DNA of 64,000 bases from a bacterium (lineage in GTDB: Bacteria; Verrucomicrobiota; Kiritimatiellia; CAIKKV01; CAIYGI01), in NCBI GenBank assembly GCA_025360745.1, contig JANYBP010000005.1:1-64000 (forward strand), in the 5' to 3' direction. The notes beneath the pieces are model-generated. The model was not told where the DNA came from. It saw only the letters and a list, made by a program, of their open reading frames with translations, and ran no database searches. The translations under genes and the position numbers were made by a program. Positions within the stretch are counted from its first letter, which is position 1; each line of letters begins with the position of its first letter. Positions 1,596 to 64,000 of this stretch are shown here, in pieces.

Positions 1596-2615
1596 ATGAG
1601 AATGATCGCCTTGGAACGCGCGCGCGAACTGGTGGCCGCTTTTGCGCGGCAGCGGATTCTCGTGGTCGGTGATTTGATGCTGGATCAGTACCTGTACGGC
1701 GGTGTCGAACGCATCTCGCCCGAGGCGCCGGTGCCGGTGGTGCGCGTGCGGCGCGAAAAGCGCATGCCGGGCGGCGCGGCCAATGTGGCCGTCAACCTGC
1801 GCGCGCTGGGCGGCGGCGCGGCGCTGGCGGGAACCGTCGGCCGCGATGCCGCGGGCGATGAATTGCGCGGCTTGCTGGCCGGACAGGGCATTGGCGCCGA
1901 AGCCGTCATGACCGATGCAAAGGCGCCGACCAGCGTCAAGATGCGCGTCGTGGCCGAACGGCAGCAGGTCTGCCGCGTGGACTGGGAATCGGGCGTCGCG
2001 TTAGCGGGCGCCGCGGCGGACGAGTTCGACGCGCGGCTGCGGTCGGCGGTGGCGGCGAGCACCGGGGTGGTGATCGAGGATTACAGCAAGGGCGTGGTCG
2101 GGCAGCGCGTGGTGGATGTCGTGATCGACGCGGCCGCGCGCGCCGGGATACCGGTTGGACTCGACCCCAAGGACAACGCCACGCTGCATTTCAGCGCCCT
2201 GGCGCTGGCGACGCCCAACTGCCGCGAGGCGCATGTTTGCGCGGGCCTGCCGCCGCGCAACGCGATCGCGGACGATCCGCTGAAGGACGCGACCCTGCGG
2301 AAGGCGGGGGAGATTCTGCTGGCCAAGTGGAACTTGAAGCAATTGATCGTCACGCTGGGCGCGCAGGGCATGTACCTGGCCGCGCCGGGCGCCGCGCCGC
2401 GGGTGATCCCGACACGGGCGCGCGAGGTTTTTGACGTGAGCGGGGCGGGGGACACGGTGATCGCGGTCTGCATGCTGGTGCTGGCGGCCGGCGGCACGCC
2501 GTCGGAGGCGGCGGCGCTGGGCAACGACGCCGCCGGTGTGGTGGTCGGCAAACTTGGCACGGCCAGTTGCGCGCCGGCGGAACTTCTGGAAGCGGTGGTG
2601 CGCGATGCCGGCTGA
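1596..2615 (+). CDS. D-glycero-beta-D-manno-heptose-7-phosphate kinase (RfaE1/HldE N-terminal domain type, PfkB family)
   Basis: VVGDLMLDQYLYGGVERISPEAPVPVVRV, PGGAANVAVNLRALGG, FDVSGAGDTVIAV. Confidence 0.92.
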   Translation: MRMIALERARELVAAFARQRILVVGDLMLDQYLYGGVERISPEAPVPVVRVRREKRMPGGAANVAVNLRALGGGAALAGTVGRDAAGDELRGLLAGQGIGAEAVMTDAKAPTSVKMRVVAERQQVCRVDWESGVALAGAAADEFDARLRSAVAASTGVVIEDYSKGVVGQRVVDVVIDAAARAGIPVGLDPKDNATLHFSALALATPNCREAHVCAGLPPRNAIADDPLKDATLRKAGEILLAKWNLKQLIVTLGAQGMYLAAPGAAPRVIPTRAREVFDVSGAGDTVIAVCMLVLAAGGTPSEAAALGNDAAGVVVGKLGTASCAPAELLEAVVRDAG

Positions 2616-3363
2616 CAAACCCCGCGTGATCGGCGTGATTCCGGCGCGCTATGGCTCGACCAGGCTGCCGGGCAAGAGTTTGATTCCTCTTTGCGGAAAG
2701 CCGCTGGTGATCTGGGTGCTCGAACGCGCGCGCCAGGCGGCGGGACTGGACGATCTCTGCGTGGCGACGGACGACGAGCGTATCCGCGCGGTGGTGGAAG
2801 CCCACGGCGGCCGGGTGGCCATGACCCGCGCCGACCATCCGTCGGGGACCGACCGTATTGCCGAGGCCGTGGCGGACGATGCGGCCGAAGTTGTGATCAA
2901 TATCCAGGGCGACGAGCCGCTGATCGATCCCGCCTTGATCAGCGCGCTGGCGCGGCGCCTGACATCCGAACCGGAATGGGCGATGGCGACGGCGGCGGCG
3001 CCGATTGACGATCCGTCCGAGTTGTCGAATCCGGCGGTGGTAAAGGTTGTCTGCGACCGGCGCGGACGGGCGCTCTATTTCTCGCGCGCGACGATTCCCT
3101 TCATTCGCGACGCCGCTCCGGCTGGCTTGCGACATTTCAGACACATTGGAGTGTATGGCTACCGGCGCGACTTTCTACGGCGGATGGTGGCCGAACCACC
3201 GTGCCTGCTCGAACGCGCCGAGAAGCTGGAACAGTTGCGGGCGCTGGATCTGGGCGCGGCCATTCTGGTGCTGGAAACGGCCTGGGCCGGGATCGGGGTG
3301 GACACGCCGGAGGACGTGCCGCGCGCCGAGGCGGCGCTGCGCCGCGCCGGATTGGCGGGATGA
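2605..3363 (+). CDS. kdsB: 3-deoxy-manno-octulosonate cytidylyltransferase
   Basis: MPADKPRVIGVIPARYGSTRLPGKSL, VATDDERI, INIQGDEPLI, HIGVYGYRRDFL; start overlaps the preceding stop. Confidence 0.93.
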   Translation: MPADKPRVIGVIPARYGSTRLPGKSLIPLCGKPLVIWVLERARQAAGLDDLCVATDDERIRAVVEAHGGRVAMTRADHPSGTDRIAEAVADDAAEVVINIQGDEPLIDPALISALARRLTSEPEWAMATAAAPIDDPSELSNPAVVKVVCDRRGRALYFSRATIPFIRDAAPAGLRHFRHIGVYGYRRDFLRRMVAEPPCLLERAEKLEQLRALDLGAAILVLETAWAGIGVDTPEDVPRAEAALRRAGLAG

Positions 3364-3369
3364 AAAGAA

Positions 3370-3551
3370 GGTGGTAGGTGGTAGGTGGAAGGTGGAGGGT
3401 GGAAGGTGGAGGGTGGAAGGTGGAGGGTGGTAGGTGGAAGGTGGTAGGTGGAAGGTGGAGGGTGGAAGGTGGAGGGTGGAAGGTGGAAGGTGGAAGGTGG
3501 AAGGTGGTAGGTGGAGGGTGGAAGGTGGGAGGTGGAGGGGGGAAGGTGGGG
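3370..3551 (+). repeat. Heptanucleotide tandem array GGTGG(AA/AG/TA), about 26 units
   Basis: Read by hand as consecutive 7-mers GGTGGTA GGTGGTA GGTGGAA GGTGGAG GGTGGAA ... with no phase shift until about 3551. Confidence 0.95.
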
Positions 3552-3681
3552 AGACGGGGAGTCAGGATTCAATGTGGCTGCTGACGCAAAAGTCGCCAGA
3601 GAAAACAGGAGAGAGGCGTAATCATAATGCGCTGTATCGCGGATCAGGAATATTTTTTAGATCATAACGTTTTCTGAACCC

Positions 3682-3730
3682 CGCATCTCGCATCTCGCAT
3701 CCCGCATCCCGCATCCCGCATCTCGCACCC
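3682..3730 (+). repeat. Heptanucleotide tandem array CGCATC(T/C), 7 units
   Basis: CGCATCT CGCATCT CGCATCC CGCATCC CGCATCC CGCATCT CGCACCC. Confidence 0.93.
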
Positions 3731-3780
3731 TAATTTGCAACCAACAAAGTCGAAAACGCGATAACTATTGAGGTGTCACT

Positions 3781-4605
3781 ATGATCCGGACGGTAAGCAT
3801 GGGCGGCGTGGCGATTGGCGGGCGGGCGCCGCTGGCGTTGATTGCGGGGCCGTGTGTGATCGAAAGCCGCAAGGGCTGCCTGGACATCGCCAGGCGGCTG
3901 GCGCGCTGGGCGGCGGACAAAGGCGTGCCGCTGGTTTTCAAGGCCAGTTATGACAAGGCCAACCGCTCGTCGCTGCGTTCCTACCGCGGACCAGGACTGC
4001 GCAAAGGTCTGGAAATTCTGCGCGAAGTCAAGGAGCGTTACGGCCTGCCTTTGCTGACCGACGTGCATGCCGTCGAGGAAGTCGAAGCGGCGGCGGCGGT
4101 GGTTGACGTGCTGCAACTGCCAGCGTTTCTGTGCCGGCAAACCGATCTGGTGCTGGAACTGGGGCGGAGCGGCAAGCCTGTGAACATCAAGAAGGGGCAA
4201 TTTCTGGCGCCGTGGGATATGCGGAGCATCATCGAAAAGGTCGAAAGCACGGGCAATCGCCGGATCGTTCTGACCGAGCGCGGCGTTTCTTTCGGCTACA
4301 ACAATCTGGTGGCCGACATGCGCAGCCTGCTGGTGATGCGCGAATACGGCTACCCGGTGGTTTTCGACGCCACCCACAGCGTGCAGAAACCAGGGGCGGC
4401 GGGCGATCGTTCCGGTGGCGACGGCTGCTGGGCGCCGGCGTTGGCGCGGGCGGCGGTGGCGGCGGGTTGCGATGGGGTTTTCATAGAAACGCATGTCGCG
4501 CCGGCCAGGGCTCTTTCCGACGCGGCCAATGCCGTTTCCTTGTCAACGCTTACCGATTTATGGCAGACTCTTAGCGGGATCGATGAACTACTGGCAAAAA
4601 AGTAA
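3781..4605 (+). CDS. kdsA: 3-deoxy-8-phosphooctulonate synthase
   Basis: LIAGPCVIESR, FKASYDKANRSSLRSYRGPGLRKGLEIL, LPAFLCRQTDLV, KPVNIKKGQFLAPWDM, FDATHSVQKPG. Confidence 0.96.
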   Translation: MIRTVSMGGVAIGGRAPLALIAGPCVIESRKGCLDIARRLARWAADKGVPLVFKASYDKANRSSLRSYRGPGLRKGLEILREVKERYGLPLLTDVHAVEEVEAAAAVVDVLQLPAFLCRQTDLVLELGRSGKPVNIKKGQFLAPWDMRSIIEKVESTGNRRIVLTERGVSFGYNNLVADMRSLLVMREYGYPVVFDATHSVQKPGAAGDRSGGDGCWAPALARAAVAAGCDGVFIETHVAPARALSDAANAVSLSTLTDLWQTLSGIDELLAKK

Positions 4606-5032
4606 CCATAAGCTGGTGTGGGTGGGGCTGATTACGGCTTTCATCGGCGCGGCGTCCTTGTGGGCGCAGTTGCCGCAGTCGGGGGTGATTTCGGGTTTCC
4701 GCGTGCCCGACCGCGACAAGCAGGGTCGGCTCAAGTCCGAACTGATCGGCGAAGAGGCGCGCATACGGCCCGACGGCAAGGTGGATTTGATGGGTGTGGC
4801 GCTGAACCTTTATAACGAGGGCGTGCGCGATGTGCAGATCAAGGCCGGGCAGTGTCAATACGACCCGACGAACCGCGTCGTGACATCGTCGGGGCCGGTG
4901 CGTTTGGAGCGCGATACGGTGACGATCAGCGGCGTCGGGTTCCGTTTCGACGGCACGACCAAGCGCATGGAATTACTCGATCAGGTGCGTGTGGAAATGA
5001 CCGGTGTACGGCGTTGGATGAAGACGGAGTAA
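4583..5032 (+). CDS. LptC-like LPS export periplasmic protein
   Basis: N-terminal TM, OstA-like beta-repeat composition, directly upstream of lptA-lptB; ATG overlaps the end of kdsA. Confidence 0.65.
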   Translation: MNYWQKSNHKLVWVGLITAFIGAASLWAQLPQSGVISGFRVPDRDKQGRLKSELIGEEARIRPDGKVDLMGVALNLYNEGVRDVQIKAGQCQYDPTNRVVTSSGPVRLERDTVTISGVGFRFDGTTKRMELLDQVRVEMTGVRRWMKTE

Positions 5033-5037
5033 ACGTG

Positions 5038-5580
5038 ATGACGAATAGAACGGTCGGACTTGGACGGGCAATTGCCATGTTGTGGCTGTTGGGCGCGGCG
5101 GCGGCGCTGGCTGGACCCGCGGCTGGGGCGGACAAGTCCGCCGAGAAACTTGCCAAGGCCAGTTTCGGGGCCGCCGGCACCAACGCGACGGTGATCACCT
5201 CCAAGCGGCTGACTTTCGACTACGCCGAACGGAAGGCGGTGTTCGAAGAAAATGTGAAGGTTGTGGACCCGTCTGTGACGATCACGGCGGATCAGATCAC
5301 GGTGACTTTCGGCGCGGACAACCAGCCCGAGACGGTGATAGCCGAGGGGCATGTGCGCGTGGAGCAGACCGATCGCTGGGCGACCTGCCAGCGCGCGGTT
5401 TACAGCGTCAAATCGGGTCTGCTGGTCCTGACCGGGCGGCCGAAACTGGTGCGTGGCCAGGATGTCTTGCAAGGCTCGCGCATCATCTTTTACCGCTATG
5501 AAGAGAAGGCCAAGTGCGAGGATGCGGTGCTGACGATTTTCCCGGGCGAAAGCGGTCTGGACAAGATGATGAAGGACTAA
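5038..5580 (+). CDS. lptA: LptA/OstA-like LPS transport periplasmic protein
   Basis: Signal peptide, then ITSKRLTFDYAERKAVFEENVKVVDPSVTITADQITVTF...VIAEGHVRVEQ (OstA-like). Confidence 0.8.
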   Translation: MTNRTVGLGRAIAMLWLLGAAAALAGPAAGADKSAEKLAKASFGAAGTNATVITSKRLTFDYAERKAVFEENVKVVDPSVTITADQITVTFGADNQPETVIAEGHVRVEQTDRWATCQRAVYSVKSGLLVLTGRPKLVRGQDVLQGSRIIFYRYEEKAKCEDAVLTIFPGESGLDKMMKD

Positions 5581-5584
5581 TCCC

Positions 5585-6310
5585 GTGGATCCGCTGATCA
5601 CTACCGACAAGCTGGTCAAGACCTACCATGGGCGCAAGGTGGTGAATGGCATCGAAATTACGGTGCAACCCGGCGAAATCGTGGGCTTGCTGGGTCCGAA
5701 CGGCGCCGGCAAGACGACGACTTTTTATATGATCACCGGCCTGATCGAGCCCACCGAAGGGCGGATTTTTTTCCGGGGCCGCGACGTGACGCGGCTGCCG
5801 ATGTACCGCCGGGCGCGCATGGGCATCGGATATCTGGCGCAGGAGCCCTCCATTTTCAGGACCATGACGGTGGCCGAGAACATCATGGCGATTTTGGAAA
5901 CGCAACGCATGGAAAACTCGGCGCGGCGCCGTCGCCTGCGTGAATTGCTGGAGGATCTGGGCATTTTGCATCTGGCCAGGCAGAAGGCCATGACGCTCAG
6001 CGGCGGCGAACGGCGGCGCCTGGAGATCGCCCGCGCCCTGGTGACCGATCCCGCGATGATCCTGCTCGACGAGCCTTTCAGCGGGGTGGACCCGCTGGCG
6101 GTCTACGACGTGCAGGAGATCGTCAAGGCGCTCAAAAAGCAGGGACTGGGCATTTTAATCACCGATCACAGCGTCCGCGAGACGCTGGCCATCGTGGATC
6201 GCGCCTACCTGATCTGCGAAGGCAAGGTCCTGCGCGAGGGTACGAGCGATTTCCTGATTCACGATGCCGTCAGTCGGGAGTTGTATTTGGGTCCGCGATT
6301 CAGTATGTAA
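5585..6310 (+). CDS. lptB: LPS export ABC transporter ATP-binding protein
   Basis: GLLGPNGAGKTTTFYMITGL, GIGYLAQEPSIFR, TLSGGERRRLEIARAL, ILLDEPFSGVDPLAV. Confidence 0.95.
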   Translation: MDPLITTDKLVKTYHGRKVVNGIEITVQPGEIVGLLGPNGAGKTTTFYMITGLIEPTEGRIFFRGRDVTRLPMYRRARMGIGYLAQEPSIFRTMTVAENIMAILETQRMENSARRRRLRELLEDLGILHLARQKAMTLSGGERRRLEIARALVTDPAMILLDEPFSGVDPLAVYDVQEIVKALKKQGLGILITDHSVRETLAIVDRAYLICEGKVLREGTSDFLIHDAVSRELYLGPRFSM

Positions 6311-58563: not shown

Positions 58564-60882
58564 TTATTTTACGGCGGTATCGACTTCAAGAACCCCACCA
58601 CCGGGAGCCAGCTCGCACTTGACCGAATAACCGTCGTCCACGCTTCTATCCCTCACGATTCTCACGGCCAGTCCGTTGAACTTCGACTCGCCCGTTGCGA
58701 CGGCCTTGATGCCGCGCGTTACGTCGATGGAAACCGCCAGCGGAGGATCGTAGACCGGTTTGTCGGCCGGCTGTTTCGGAACGACCGCCGTCCCGGCCAA
58801 TTCGGCCAGCGCCTTGACGTCGGCGGCTTTGCCCTTCTCAACCGGGCTGCTCAGGAAAACGACGCCCAGTTTTCCCGGGGCCTTGTTGTGTCCTAACTTC
58901 ACGGGCAACACCAGCCGCGCGCCCTTGATGCCCTTGGCTGGGAGATCCTTGAGATCGCCGGTAAAATACTGTGCGCTGGCGATGCCCGTATTTTCGCTGT
59001 CTTGCGCATTCGGCCAGCGGAGCGTACCGGTCTCGCCGACTTCACCCTTCACATTCGCATATTGGACGGAGGTCAAAGGAATCCTGGTCGTCTTGACTTC
59101 CACCGGTTTGACCGCCTCGGGCTTTTCCGTGCCAATCAGGAAAGGATTGGGCAGCACGGCCAGTTCGTCGCCGGCGCCGGCTTTGGCTTCCACGGCCCCC
59201 GGCGGCAGCGGCTGCGGCGCGGAACCCGGCGCCAGCGCCTCGCGTCGCACGAACAGCATGCGCGGGTAGACGGGGTACTGTCCCTTTGGGGTGGGGCAGT
59301 CGATATCGAAGGTTGCCGGCAGCTCTTTTGACGTAAAGGTTTTCTGCACGCAGGTGATGTCATCCGACCACTTGGCGCCGGTTTGTCTGGCGATCTCCTT
59401 GCCCTGGTCGCAAAGTTTGTCGAACGACCTTGTCCGTGAACCCAGGCGGTAGGCGTAGGTCACAACCAGCTTGTTCGCTCCCAGCGCCTTCGGATCGTCG
59501 ACCGCGACGGTCACCCGGTTCTTGCCGGGGGAGAGGTACGGCAGGGCGCCGGGATTGTTCTGGACCACCGCCCGCACCTTCAAACTCGTGAGCGGCTCCT
59601 TGATGCCGATCCTGACCAGCGCGGCCAGCTTGCCCTTGACCGCCTCCGAGAAATTCGTGATCGCGGCCGGCTTATAGGTCTTGCCGCCGTCCACCGAAAC
59701 CTCGACCGTGTCGGCGCCGGCAGCTTCGCCGGACGCCATGGTCAGTATGTAAGGCGATTTCAGGCTGAAGACCACGCTGGCCGGTTTGCCGGACTCGGCG
59801 GGCGTCAGCGCCTTGTTCGCGAACTTGACGTTTTCCACGCTGACGAACGAATTCAGGCAGTCGGCGCCATTCGCGAAATCGGGGGCAAAAGTCAGGCTGC
59901 CGTTGGCATAACTGCGCGCCGGCTTGCTGTTGATGTACGGTTCGAGCACGTGACCATAGCCCGGGCTGTTGATGGTGTCCTTGTGGCGCGGGCAGCTGTG
60001 CGTCGGAGCTTTGCTTCTCCCCGCCCAATACCAGGCATCCGGCTGCGGATCCCAGCTGTTTTCCAGACTGAAGCCGGGGGCCAGGTTGACGTCCGTGGAG
60101 TAATTGCCGGTGGCGTGGTTGATACCCGCCCAGCCCTCCGCACGGACGTGGCCCTTGTGGTTCGCCAGTCCGCGCACCACGCCGTCGATGGTGTCGCCGC
60201 AGACCAGGAAAGCCGGCGCCTTCCAGTTGGCTTGCTCGCCGTTCATGACGAAAGCGTTGTCGTTCGCATAGACCACGCCACGCCCCTTGTCCAGCGTGAA
60301 GGCCTTGACGATCAGTTCCTGGGGATCCTTGTTCAGGTCGTCCTCGCCGGCGATGGTGCGTCCGCCCTTGCCGTCAGGCATCCAGGCGTAGAATTTGAGG
60401 AATATATCGACATAATGCCAGCGTCCGTCGTATTGCGCTTCCACCGTTGTGTGGCCCGGATTGCTCCAGCCCACAAAACGCCACTCCCAGCCCAGTTCGC
60501 GCCAGATCGCGGACTGCTCGGAATGCAGGCCGCCGCAAAGACTCCAGCCGTAGCAGTTGATCTCCTTGAGCACCGGCACGCCGCCCGCTTCATTCGGATA
60601 GGAATGGTGGTAGTGCGAAATCTGCATGAAGTTGTAGACCGCGATGGCCTTCTCGTCGTTGTTCTTGCAGCCGCGGGTGACCGATTCGGCGATGGCTTTG
60701 AGCGATGAGCAGTCCGCAGCCAGATCCGGTTGCACCTTGATGCCTTTGACCTCGCCAGGCGCTGCCGGCGACGCGATCTCCACCGCCGCCTTCACGGGTC
60801 CCGCCGCCTGCGCCTGTGTCCCGGCTACGCCCAGCAGTGTTGCCATGGCCAGAGTTCCGCCCAACGCCAGAGTTCTTCGAGT
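58564..60882 (-). CDS. Secreted transglutaminase-like domain protein
   Basis: Signal peptide; AIAVYNFMQIS...INCYGWSLCGGLHSEQSAIWRELGWEWRFVGWSNPGHTTVEAQYDGRWHYVDIFLKF (Cys/His/Asp transglutaminase-like). Confidence 0.75.
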   Translation of the reverse strand, partial: TRRTLALGGTLAMATLLGVAGTQAQAAGPVKAAVEIASPAAPGEVKGIKVQPDLAADCSSLKAIAESVTRGCKNNDEKAIAVYNFMQISHYHHSYPNEAGGVPVLKEINCYGWSLCGGLHSEQSAIWRELGWEWRFVGWSNPGHTTVEAQYDGRWHYVDIFLKFYAWMPDGKGGRTIAGEDDLNKDPQELIVKAFTLDKGRGVVYANDNAFVMNGEQANWKAPAFLVCGDTIDGVVRGLANHKGHVRAEGWAGINHATGNYSTDVNLAPGFSLENSWDPQPDAWYWAGRSKAPTHSCPRHKDTINSPGYGHVLEPYINSKPARSYANGSLTFAPDFANGADCLNSFVSVENVKFANKALTPAESGKPASVVFSLKSPYILTMASGEAAGADTVEVSVDGGKTYKPAAITNFSEAVKGKLAALVRIGIKEPLTSLKVRAVVQNNPGALPYLSPGKNRVTVAVDDPKALGANKLVVTYAYRLGSRTRSFDKLCDQGKEIARQTGAKWSDDITCVQKTFTSKELPATFDIDCPTPKGQYPVYPRMLFVRREALAPGSAPQPLPPGAVEAKAGAGDELAVLPNPFLIGTEKPEAVKPVEVKTTRIPLTSVQYANVKGEVGETGTLRWPNAQDSENTGIASAQYFTGDLKDLPAKGIKGARLVLPVKLGHNKAPGKLGVVFLSSPVEKGKAADVKALAELAGTAVVPKQPADKPVYDPPLAVSIDVTRGIKAVATGESKFNGLAVRIVRDRSVDDGYSVKCELAPGGGVLEVDTAVK

Positions 60883-61017
60883 CATCTTTTGCTTGCTCCT
60901 TTTGTGCGTCCCTGGCGTCCTGGCCAAGCACGCCGCCTCAGTCGATCTGAGATATGGAAAACAAAAATTCAGATTAACATTCGCTTATCCGGCGAACAAT
61001 ATAAATCGCTTCAGACT

Positions 61018-63528
61018 TCAAACTTCGGGCGCCACGTAGCGCATGCCGCCCAGCCGTTTCCAATGGCGATAGATGCCCAGCAGGGCCATCAGCCCGAGCA
61101 CGCCCGCGATACCCTGGAACAGGAAACCGTAGCGGTAGTTGTCGGTGTCGAACGAGTTGGCGGTCAGCCAATCCATCAAGAGCGCCCCCAGCAGGCCGGC
61201 CGCCGCCGCCACCGCCTGCCGTATCAGCGCATTGGCGGAACACATCTGGCCGTACTTGGAGCGCGGAAAGAGCATCACCGTCATCGGCATCCAGGCCGCC
61301 CCGAGCAGCGAGGTCAGCGGCATCCGGACCATGTTCACCCAGAAGCCCGACATGTAGTCATGCACCAGCCAGAACGGCAGGAAGGCGAACGGAAGGCCGG
61401 CGATCGTCATCCACAAGGTGATCCGGACGGGATGCAGCCGGTCCACCAGCACGCCCAGCGGGTAGGCGAGCAGGATGGAAATCGCCATGAAAAAAGCCAG
61501 GCTCATGCCGTTCTTGCGCAGGCTCACCCCTTCGTCGAGATCCCAGAAATGGATCGTGCCGTCGCCGCAAGCCGTCAGCATGCGCTTCCCGGACGCCGGC
61601 GGGGCGATGGCCGTGACCTCGTGGGTGTAGCCGGAGAAGGTCTTGAGGGACTGGTCGCCGGCCAGGACGGAGGCATCGAGCGGCATCCATAAGCGGATGC
61701 TGCTGTCATAACTGCCCGAGAGGATGGCGCGGATGTCGGCTTTATAGGCCACGCTCGAGATACTCGCCTTGTGTCCCGTGAGTTCCTGCAGCAGTTTGCC
61801 GGTGCGCAGAGCCCAGATCCGGACCGCTGAATTTGCCGTGTTTGTGTTCCCGTCCTGGCCGCCCGCGACGGCCCATCCGTCCTCCAGCGCGATCCGGCTT
61901 GCGGCATCCGCCGGCGTGTCGTAAAGGGACTCGTTCGTGAATAGATATTTCATTTGCTCCGCGACCAGCCGGAAGGTCCTGGCCCACCAGTCTCGCGGCG
62001 TCGCGTCCGGCCCGGCCCTTTTTTCCAGTGCCGGCGCGAAGCAAACCGCCTGAACCGGCCCGGGACTGTCATCCAAGGTCTGCAGCCGCACGCCCCGTGC
62101 GGCGTCCCAGATCACGACCCTGCGGTCGGAACCGCCCGAGATTAGGCGCTCGCCGTTCGCCGACCAGGCCACCGCGTTCACGGGCCCGGCATGGCCTTCA
62201 AGCACAAGCTGGCAGGCGCCGGAGGGAATGTCCCAGACGCGCACACTCCGGTCGGCGCCGGCCGAGGCCAGACGCTTTCCATCGCCCCGGAAGGCAACCC
62301 CGCAGACGGCCCCGGTGTGCCCGGTTGCGGTTTGGAGCAGCCGTCCGCTCTGCGCATCCCATATGGAAATGCGCCCGTCCGCGCGTCCGGCGGCCACGGT
62401 CAGCCCGTCGCCCGCGACGGCAACGCAAAGAACCGCGCCGCCTTCGCCGCGCAGGGTTTTCACGAGCAGCGCTGCGCCCTTGTCCGGGCAGCGCCACAGT
62501 TTTACGAGGCCGTCCCGCCCTCCCGAGACCCAGCGCGAACCGTCCGGCGTGGCCGCCGCGGCCGCGGCTCCTCCGGGATGGGCCGGCACGCTGGATTGAT
62601 GCTGGCTGATGTGAAGGTTGAAGATGCCGGCCGGGATCGTCCCGATCGTCAACACGCTGGCCGCCGACATCAGGTAAAAAAGGACGTAGATGGGGTGGGT
62701 GAAGCACTCGCGAAAGAAAATGCCGACCTGCTCCCGCACCGTCGTCTGTTTCGTCACGTCCGTGACCGGCGGATACTCGCCCTCCTTGACGCGCCAGCAC
62801 ATCAGTCCGAAGCCCACAAAGTACAGCGCCGCGAGCCCAACGTGAATGGCCTTCAGGTGGGTCAACTGATACGGCACGATCAGCGCGTTGGTCAGCAGTC
62901 CCGCGCCAAACCCGACCAGGCGGAACAAGCCCATGAAACGCCCGAGAAAACGCTCCGGCACCACATCCGCGAAGAGATACCAGTAAACCGTGCCGACAAA
63001 CTCGTTGAAAAACGAAAAGCCGACCGTTAGCGCCCCGATGGCGATCAAGGCCGCCGTGAAGGGCTGGACCAGGGAATTTTCCGACAGGTGCAGTTTGAAA
63101 AAGGTCACGATCTCGTCGGAAAAACCCACCCCCGCCGCGAAAAGACAGAGGAACGGCGCGGTCACCACCATGTAGGGAATGCGCCGTCCCCAGCGCGTGC
63201 GCGTGCGGTCCGACTTGAACCCGATGATGGGCGTCATGACCATCCCGATCAGTTGCGGGATCAAATTGAAGAGGATGTTGACTTGCAGGTTGCTGACATG
63301 GAAATTGTCCTGCAAGTAGAGCCCGAGAATGCCAGGACCGCCTGCCGATTCGAAAAGCTGGAAGCAGAGATTGCCCCAGAGCAGCCAGCTGAACATCGCG
63401 AAAAGGGCGGCCTTGGTGTAGACCAGCGTGCCGATGCGATACGGCGGACCATCATGTGCCGCGCCACCGTCCGCGGCCGGAGCCCCTGCGGTTGTGCGTT
63501 TCATATCGCGCAAGCCTTCCGCCGGCAC
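61018..63528 (-). CDS. MFS (GPH/MFS_2-like) transporter with an inserted WD40 propeller
   Basis: N-terminal TMs (LFAMFSWLLWGNLCFQLFE, PQLIGMVMTPIIGFKSDRTRTRWGRRIPYMVV); WD40 repeats (LASAGADRSVRVWDIPSGACQLVLEGHAGPVNAVAWS etc.); then TMs resume (MSLAFFMAISILLAYPLGVLVDRLHPVRITLWM). Confidence 0.88.
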   Translation of the reverse strand: MPAEGLRDMKRTTAGAPAADGGAAHDGPPYRIGTLVYTKAALFAMFSWLLWGNLCFQLFESAGGPGILGLYLQDNFHVSNLQVNILFNLIPQLIGMVMTPIIGFKSDRTRTRWGRRIPYMVVTAPFLCLFAAGVGFSDEIVTFFKLHLSENSLVQPFTAALIAIGALTVGFSFFNEFVGTVYWYLFADVVPERFLGRFMGLFRLVGFGAGLLTNALIVPYQLTHLKAIHVGLAALYFVGFGLMCWRVKEGEYPPVTDVTKQTTVREQVGIFFRECFTHPIYVLFYLMSAASVLTIGTIPAGIFNLHISQHQSSVPAHPGGAAAAAATPDGSRWVSGGRDGLVKLWRCPDKGAALLVKTLRGEGGAVLCVAVAGDGLTVAAGRADGRISIWDAQSGRLLQTATGHTGAVCGVAFRGDGKRLASAGADRSVRVWDIPSGACQLVLEGHAGPVNAVAWSANGERLISGGSDRRVVIWDAARGVRLQTLDDSPGPVQAVCFAPALEKRAGPDATPRDWWARTFRLVAEQMKYLFTNESLYDTPADAASRIALEDGWAVAGGQDGNTNTANSAVRIWALRTGKLLQELTGHKASISSVAYKADIRAILSGSYDSSIRLWMPLDASVLAGDQSLKTFSGYTHEVTAIAPPASGKRMLTACGDGTIHFWDLDEGVSLRKNGMSLAFFMAISILLAYPLGVLVDRLHPVRITLWMTIAGLPFAFLPFWLVHDYMSGFWVNMVRMPLTSLLGAAWMPMTVMLFPRSKYGQMCSANALIRQAVAAAAGLLGALLMDWLTANSFDTDNYRYGFLFQGIAGVLGLMALLGIYRHWKRLGGMRYVAPEV

Positions 63529-63564: not shown

Positions 63565-64000
63565 TTACTTCACCGGGTTGGCATACGGTTCGTTGATGCG
63601 CCAGAGCGACTTGGCCAGCGCCGGGATTGTGCGGAAGTCCGAGACCAGCGGGTCGAGCGTGAGCGCCTCCTGGAAGGCGGCGAAATCTCGTTCGGCCGCG
63701 GCCCGCTCGGAGAGCAGATTCAGGCAGACCAGCGGCGTGAGGATCCCGAGCAGGAACGGCGGGAGCGGCGCGTTGGCCACCGGCTGGCAGCCATTGGCGC
63801 TGAAATGACAGGTGAGTTCGAGGTTGGCCTCGGCCGGCAGGTTGGGAACCGAAGCGCCGTTCGTGAGGTTGAGATGCAACTCGCGCTGGATGCGGTCGCC
63901 GAAGCGGCCCTCCAGTCCGAAGATGATGTCGTGCAGGTGTTCGCTCGACAACTTGTCCATGTCGGGAATCGGTTTTTTGCCGTAGGCCCAGCCGCTGATC
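63565..64000 (-). CDS. C-terminal part of a probable family 4 glycosyl hydrolase (partial, continues past the window)
   Basis: Frame stays open to the window edge (ISGWAYGKKPIPDMDKLSSEH...); LTNGASVPNLPAEANLELTCHFSANGCQPVANAPLPPFLLGILTPLVCLNLLSERAAAERDFAAFQEALTLDPLV resembles a GH4 C-terminus. Confidence 0.6.
   Translation of the reverse strand, partial: ISGWAYGKKPIPDMDKLSSEHLHDIIFGLEGRFGDRIQRELHLNLTNGASVPNLPAEANLELTCHFSANGCQPVANAPLPPFLLGILTPLVCLNLLSERAAAERDFAAFQEALTLDPLVSDFRTIPALAKSLWRINEPYANPVK

Follow-up and report, generated by a model that had tools for sequence, protein, structure and literature searches.

The locus described here raises the question of whether a bacterial gene that appears to carry an entire WD40 propeller between the two halves of a major facilitator superfamily (MFS) transporter encodes a real protein, and, if so, on which side of the membrane the propeller lies and what it may do there. 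An MFS transporter usually consists of its 12 helices and little else, and the WD40 domain is normally regarded as a cytoplasmic scaffold. The gene lies on the minus strand of the window, by which we mean the whole stretch of Verrucomicrobiota DNA that was analyzed (64,000 nucleotides). A first-pass annotation had described one uninterrupted frame of about 830 aa with an insert at roughly 61520-62600; the frame is indeed single and open over 836 codons with no internal stop, and the insert as measured spans approximately 61534-62601. The ATG at 63504, with GGAAGG upstream, is probably the better start and would yield a protein of 828 aa. The parts of the gene and its two flanking genes are as follows.

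61018..63528, minus strand: whole open reading frame, 836 codons counted from the GTG at 63528
62611..63441, minus strand: MFS N-domain and TM7 (TM1-TM7), from Pfam MFS_2, AlphaFold2 helices and alignment against uninserted relatives
61534..62601, minus strand: inserted WD40 propeller, predicted to be seven-bladed, 28-stranded and Velcro-closed, from PF00400, AlphaFold2 and Foldseek
61891..62025, minus strand: blade-5 excursion of 45 aa containing a helix, from the AlphaFold2 helix at residues 506-522 and alignment of fused copies
61021..61533, minus strand: MFS TM8-TM12, opening with a conserved G-V/I-S-L, from MFS_1, AlphaFold2 and alignment against uninserted relatives
63565..63960, minus strand: 3' part of a gene for a GH4 glycosidase (full length 449 aa), which extends beyond the end of the window
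58564..60927, minus strand: downstream gene whose 787-aa product has a signal-like N-terminus and, scoring below the Pfam cut-off, a transglutaminase-like core

To place the transporter part, we compared each half with family models and with relatives that lack the insert. The N-terminal half (62619-63504) matches Pfam MFS_2 above cut-off (1.6e-11, 43.9 bits against 27), and the C-terminal half (61021-61530) matches MFS_1 slightly below it (2.4e-7, 30.5 bits against 33.4); the uninserted relative L014 exceeds the cut-off for both profiles. The basic motif D-R-x-R-x-x-x-G-R-R of the cytoplasmic TM2-3 loop is present, with D99, R100, R102, G106, R107, and R108 invariant in alignment A1. AlphaFold2 models of both the fused protein and L014 show the two six-helix halves of a 12-TM MFS fold; that of L014 is a standard 12-helix MFS protein, for which Foldseek returns MelB, LacY, and NorA, among others. 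Family assignment within the MFS is looser. The model of GPH sugar:cation symporters (TIGR00792) scores 15.7 bits against a cut-off of 231 and that of the SUC/SLC45 sucrose transporters (TIGR01301) 23.4 bits against 511, and because both match weakly we place the MFS-WD40 protein in neither family. The description "MFS_2/GPH-like" in the first-pass annotation thus stands for MFS_2, which the N-terminal half matches above cut-off, and applies to GPH only loosely. The GPH family, to which MFS_2 and MelB belong, lacks the insert; the best-matching sequences of solved structure, which include plant SUC1 (8bb6, 8.2e-14) and human SLC45A4 (9giu, 4.6e-6), likewise lack it, and their similarity is weak and covers part of the chain. 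Other members of the same transporter family carry extensions of different kinds: Calx-beta domains fused N-terminally (L082:4783-8289 in G328 and L083:5552-9172 in G330, both minus strand), a C-terminal extension of ~180 aa with several hydrophobic segments (L039 and L053), an N-terminal extension of ~200-300 aa with hydrophobic segments (L084 and L059), or a C-terminal TPR region (L087).

The middle part of the frame matches PF00400 (WD40) with at least five repeats (1e-49, 165 bits against a cut-off of 27). The AlphaFold2 model of the fused protein, built from an input alignment of 21 sequences (mean pLDDT 81.4, pTM 0.72), runs from seven TM helices through 28 beta strands to five TM helices, for 12 TM helices in total, and Foldseek matches the propeller to seven-bladed WD40 structures with a target TM-score of ~0.94. 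In this model, the strand order, as we read it, is that of seven blades of four strands each, with the first strand completing the last blade in a Velcro closure, and the two ends of the insert are therefore adjacent. Among uninserted relatives, the turn between TM7 and TM8 is four residues long in 42 of 42 aligned sequences, and the junctions of the insert (...GIFNLHIS and ...DEGVSLRKNGMSLAFF...) coincide with this turn. The G-L-S-L that precedes TM8 in uninserted relatives is retained as G-V/I-S-L directly after the final blade. A Velcro-closed propeller with its ends side by side would fit such a four-residue turn and leave the 12-helix fold undisturbed. Model and 42-relative alignment therefore agree with the earlier proposal of a propeller inserted after TM7 between the transporter halves, and structure prediction, which the first-pass annotation had put forward as a check, gives an MFS fold in the flanks and not two separate proteins. 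A helical excursion in blade 5, whose motif F-T/V-N-E-S/T-L-Y/F is conserved in most fused relatives, is a possible docking element.

Loop charges bear on the side of the membrane. In the fused copies, K+R averages 6.0 in the TM2-3 loop and 4.5 in the TM6-7 loop, compared with 0.3 in TM1-2 and 1.5 in TM3-4; taken with the normal N-in topology of MFS proteins, the basic TM2-3 and TM6-7 loops argue strongly for a propeller on the periplasmic side, in line with the extracytoplasmic location first suggested for the loop after TM7.

A frame of this kind could in principle arise from two genes fused by mis-assembly or a frameshift, and the members of the group do come from draft assemblies, largely metagenome-derived. 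The window genome, however, has a second gene with the same architecture, on contig C34 (L052:3352-6615, minus strand; 1088-1139 aa), with roughly 13 WD-like repeats rather than seven, that is, about six additional blades by count. Fused copies occur elsewhere once in G009, once in G334 (L011, on G334:C193), and twice in G437 (one of them L012, on G437:C459); L011 and L012 have the same lengths as those contigs and give identical matches, and each is entered once. In the Planctomycetota MAG GL140, two pieces are present: L013 is cut off by a contig end after its N-terminal half has passed into the propeller, and L115 opens another contig with a propeller that leads into a C-terminal half. We infer these to be one gene broken by contig ends. 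At L115:3-160, the 5' contig end preceding the WD40 part, there is a hydrophobic segment where a blade would be expected, representing either a contig-end chimera or a different arrangement. Homologs with the same insertion point, which the first-pass annotation had proposed to look for, are thus represented by the paralog and by four other genomes. The junctions are the same at independent loci in several genomes, although propeller identity is 22-58%; the copies form one clade, the frames are free of stops, and selection at the codon level is purifying. No frameshift or assembly join was found in the insert, and because the same insertion recurs in independent assemblies, we reject an artifact as vanishingly improbable. 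The MFS-WD40 fusion is a real transporter design, since the insertion recurs in the genomes of at least four other uncultured bacteria.

When the transporter part is analyzed by itself, the tree groups all seven fused copies in a single clade (support 100/98) adjoining the uninserted L014 and L015; the simplest account is a single insertion that was later inherited or transferred. Within the propeller, pN is ~0.29-0.39 per site with pS near-saturated, from which we infer that the domain is maintained by purifying selection. Conservation is uneven: the fused copies differ more from one another in the propeller than in the N-terminal half, and within the propeller blade 2 shows the lowest identity and blades 4-7 are more conserved than blades 1-3. 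The most diverged copy (G437b/L012; 22-25% identity) has lost the WD signature from most blades, and its propeller surface is therefore not conserved. The fused gene is present in 3 of 347 genomes of the class of the window genome and in 1 of 199 genomes of the class of G437, which makes the fusion rare and patchy. In two genomes checked, that of the window and G437, all WD40 matches fall within these transporters, and no alternative WD40 protein as a source of the insert was found in the window genome. Elsewhere in the same phylum, two adjacent large WD40-rich frames of 1219 and 1225 codons are present at G508:C71:99726-109942.

A genome of the same order, G003, presents a two-gene arrangement at L088 (G003:C1), in which an uninserted MFS gene overlaps the next gene by 4 bp (ATGA).

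2394-4247 and 4244-5794, minus strand: the G003 split pair

The second gene encodes one N-terminal TM helix, a middle region of ~270 residues in which no Pfam match was seen, and a C-terminal WD40 propeller. The MFS gene of this pair sits near the fused clade in the tree, and the anchored WD40 shares ~28% identity with the insert, a level that a generic WD40 might also reach. A wider search of its class for the anchored WD40 protein recovered the G003 copy only. This single split case suggests two ways, fused or split, in which a transporter of this type can be combined with a membrane-attached WD40 domain.

The gene neighborhood bears on substrate. The GH4 gene lies upstream of the transporter on the same strand with a gap of 36-60 bp, and a GH2 enzyme is also near, in keeping with the carbohydrate setting noted initially; at other fused copies the surroundings include GH42-like and GH94-like genes and genes for GntR/LacI-type regulators. 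From these neighbors and from precedents, the substrate is likely a sugar or small glycoside. An all-against-all comparison of neighbors turned up no gene common to all fused loci across genomes, and no partner can therefore be named. Several other frames are recorded here as observations: one resembling the transglutaminase-like protein of 58564-60927 on the other side of the cluster (L114:5776-6999, plus strand), a distant relative of that protein (24% identity) near the G003 split pair (L088:11709-13610, plus strand), and a 905-aa frame that joins Peptidase_M28 and Antibiotic_NAT (AAC(3)-like) domains (L077:2797-5511, minus strand).

What might a periplasmic propeller do at this position? 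The usual ligands of WD40 propellers are proteins and peptides. We propose a reading, which we consider about evenly poised between right and wrong as a whole, in which a SUC/SLC45-like MFS sugar symporter acquired, through one ancestral TM7-TM8 insertion, a periplasmic propeller that docks a partner. The transporter would be proton- or cation-coupled and nearest to the SUC/SLC45 branch; the insertion would have placed a closed seven-bladed propeller in the short periplasmic TM7-TM8 turn, where it would form a fixed docking platform beside the pore mouth. The docked partner would be kept near the entrance and may be a glycan or a protein; a glycosidase that releases the substrate and a channel of the outer membrane are examples of the latter. 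Judged from neighbors and precedents, docking is the most likely function, and we prefer it because other MFS proteins with extramembrane domains offer precedents and because WD40 is mostly a protein-binding platform; it appears to fit those precedents at least as well as the sensor ("transceptor") or substrate-capture roles originally suggested.

The propeller might instead act as a capture device or lid, one face or the central channel binding a sugar or oligosaccharide and passing it to the pore. The predicted location at the pore mouth, the short direct links to TM7 and TM8, the higher conservation of blades 4-7, which lie toward the TM8 junction, and the conserved blade-5 motif all suit such a role, but the general preference of WD40 propellers for proteins and peptides does not, nor does the lower conservation of the propeller relative to the N-terminal half, and no conserved sugar-binding pattern was identified in it; we regard capture as fairly unlikely. 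A structural or protective role, in which the propeller shields the periplasmic face or stabilizes or oligomerizes the transporter with no specific partner, would explain why the divergent G437b/L012 copy keeps the size of the domain while losing its WD signature and why the paralog tolerates ~six extra blades, and has a precedent in MFSD1-GLMP (PMC11252000). The good conservation of blades 4-7 and of the blade-5 motif across most genomes is less readily explained in this way, and we consider such a role unlikely. Least favored among the functional alternatives is a transceptor, in which the propeller would sense an extracytoplasmic ligand and the transporter relay the signal inward. The position of the propeller is sensor-like, and two copies have GntR/LacI-type regulators, which are substrate-responsive, in their vicinity, but the cytoplasmic termini are short, a cytoplasmic signaling domain is absent, and no regulator gene is common to all copies, which makes this a long shot.

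Periplasmic docking thus remains our preferred reading. In broader terms, and with confidence just short of even, we suggest that a Verrucomicrobiota/Planctomycetota lineage of sugar transporters possesses a built-in periplasmic WD40 docking or gating module that evolved once and has a two-gene version in a relative. If so, a bacterial WD40 scaffold would work outside the cytoplasm as an integral part of a transporter. The fused clade, the extra-blade paralog, and the split two-gene relative constitute natural variants with which the role of the domain can be probed.

MFS-WD40 is a little-known transporter design: a keyword search of a library of open-access papers, with subscription journals and protein databases outside its scope, returned no description of the insertion, and a study that surveyed prokaryotic WD40 proteins systematically (PMC5587647) makes no mention of MFS or transporters. 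Within freshwater Verrucomicrobia, WD40 domains are carried by PSCyt (Planctomycete-specific cytochrome c) proteins for which a periplasmic or cytoplasmic location is predicted (PMC5615132); these are redox-type proteins and not transporters. The G003 split pair resembles MFSD1 and its luminal partner GLMP, where an MFS protein is likewise accompanied by a beta-rich luminal accessory domain on a single TM anchor (PMC11252000), although GLMP is a beta-sandwich and that system belongs to animals and handles dipeptides.

The well-known MFS proteins with folded extramembrane insertions are, to our knowledge, animal proteins. PepT1 and PepT2 (SLC15) also carry an extra globular beta domain within the MFS fold and outside the cell; their Ig-like domains bind trypsin, and transport is not appreciably reduced when these domains are removed (PMC4597091). 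Recruitment of a hydrolase that makes the substrate is a likeness to the docking reading, whereas the presence of two Ig-like domains, in another loop of mammalian peptide transporters, is a difference. The insertion site is shared by the luminal domain LD4 of SV2A/SV2C, a folded all-beta domain in a 12-TM MFS protein that lies between TM7 and TM8 on the noncytoplasmic side and joins TM7 directly, as the WD40 insert does (PMC11026379). LD4 is a beta-helix and not a WD40 propeller, and SV2A/SV2C are animal proteins rather than bacterial sugar transporters; the two insertions are likely of independent origin. The locus presents a bacterial MFS protein in which a complete WD40 propeller occupies the TM7-TM8 site that in SV2A holds the luminal domain.
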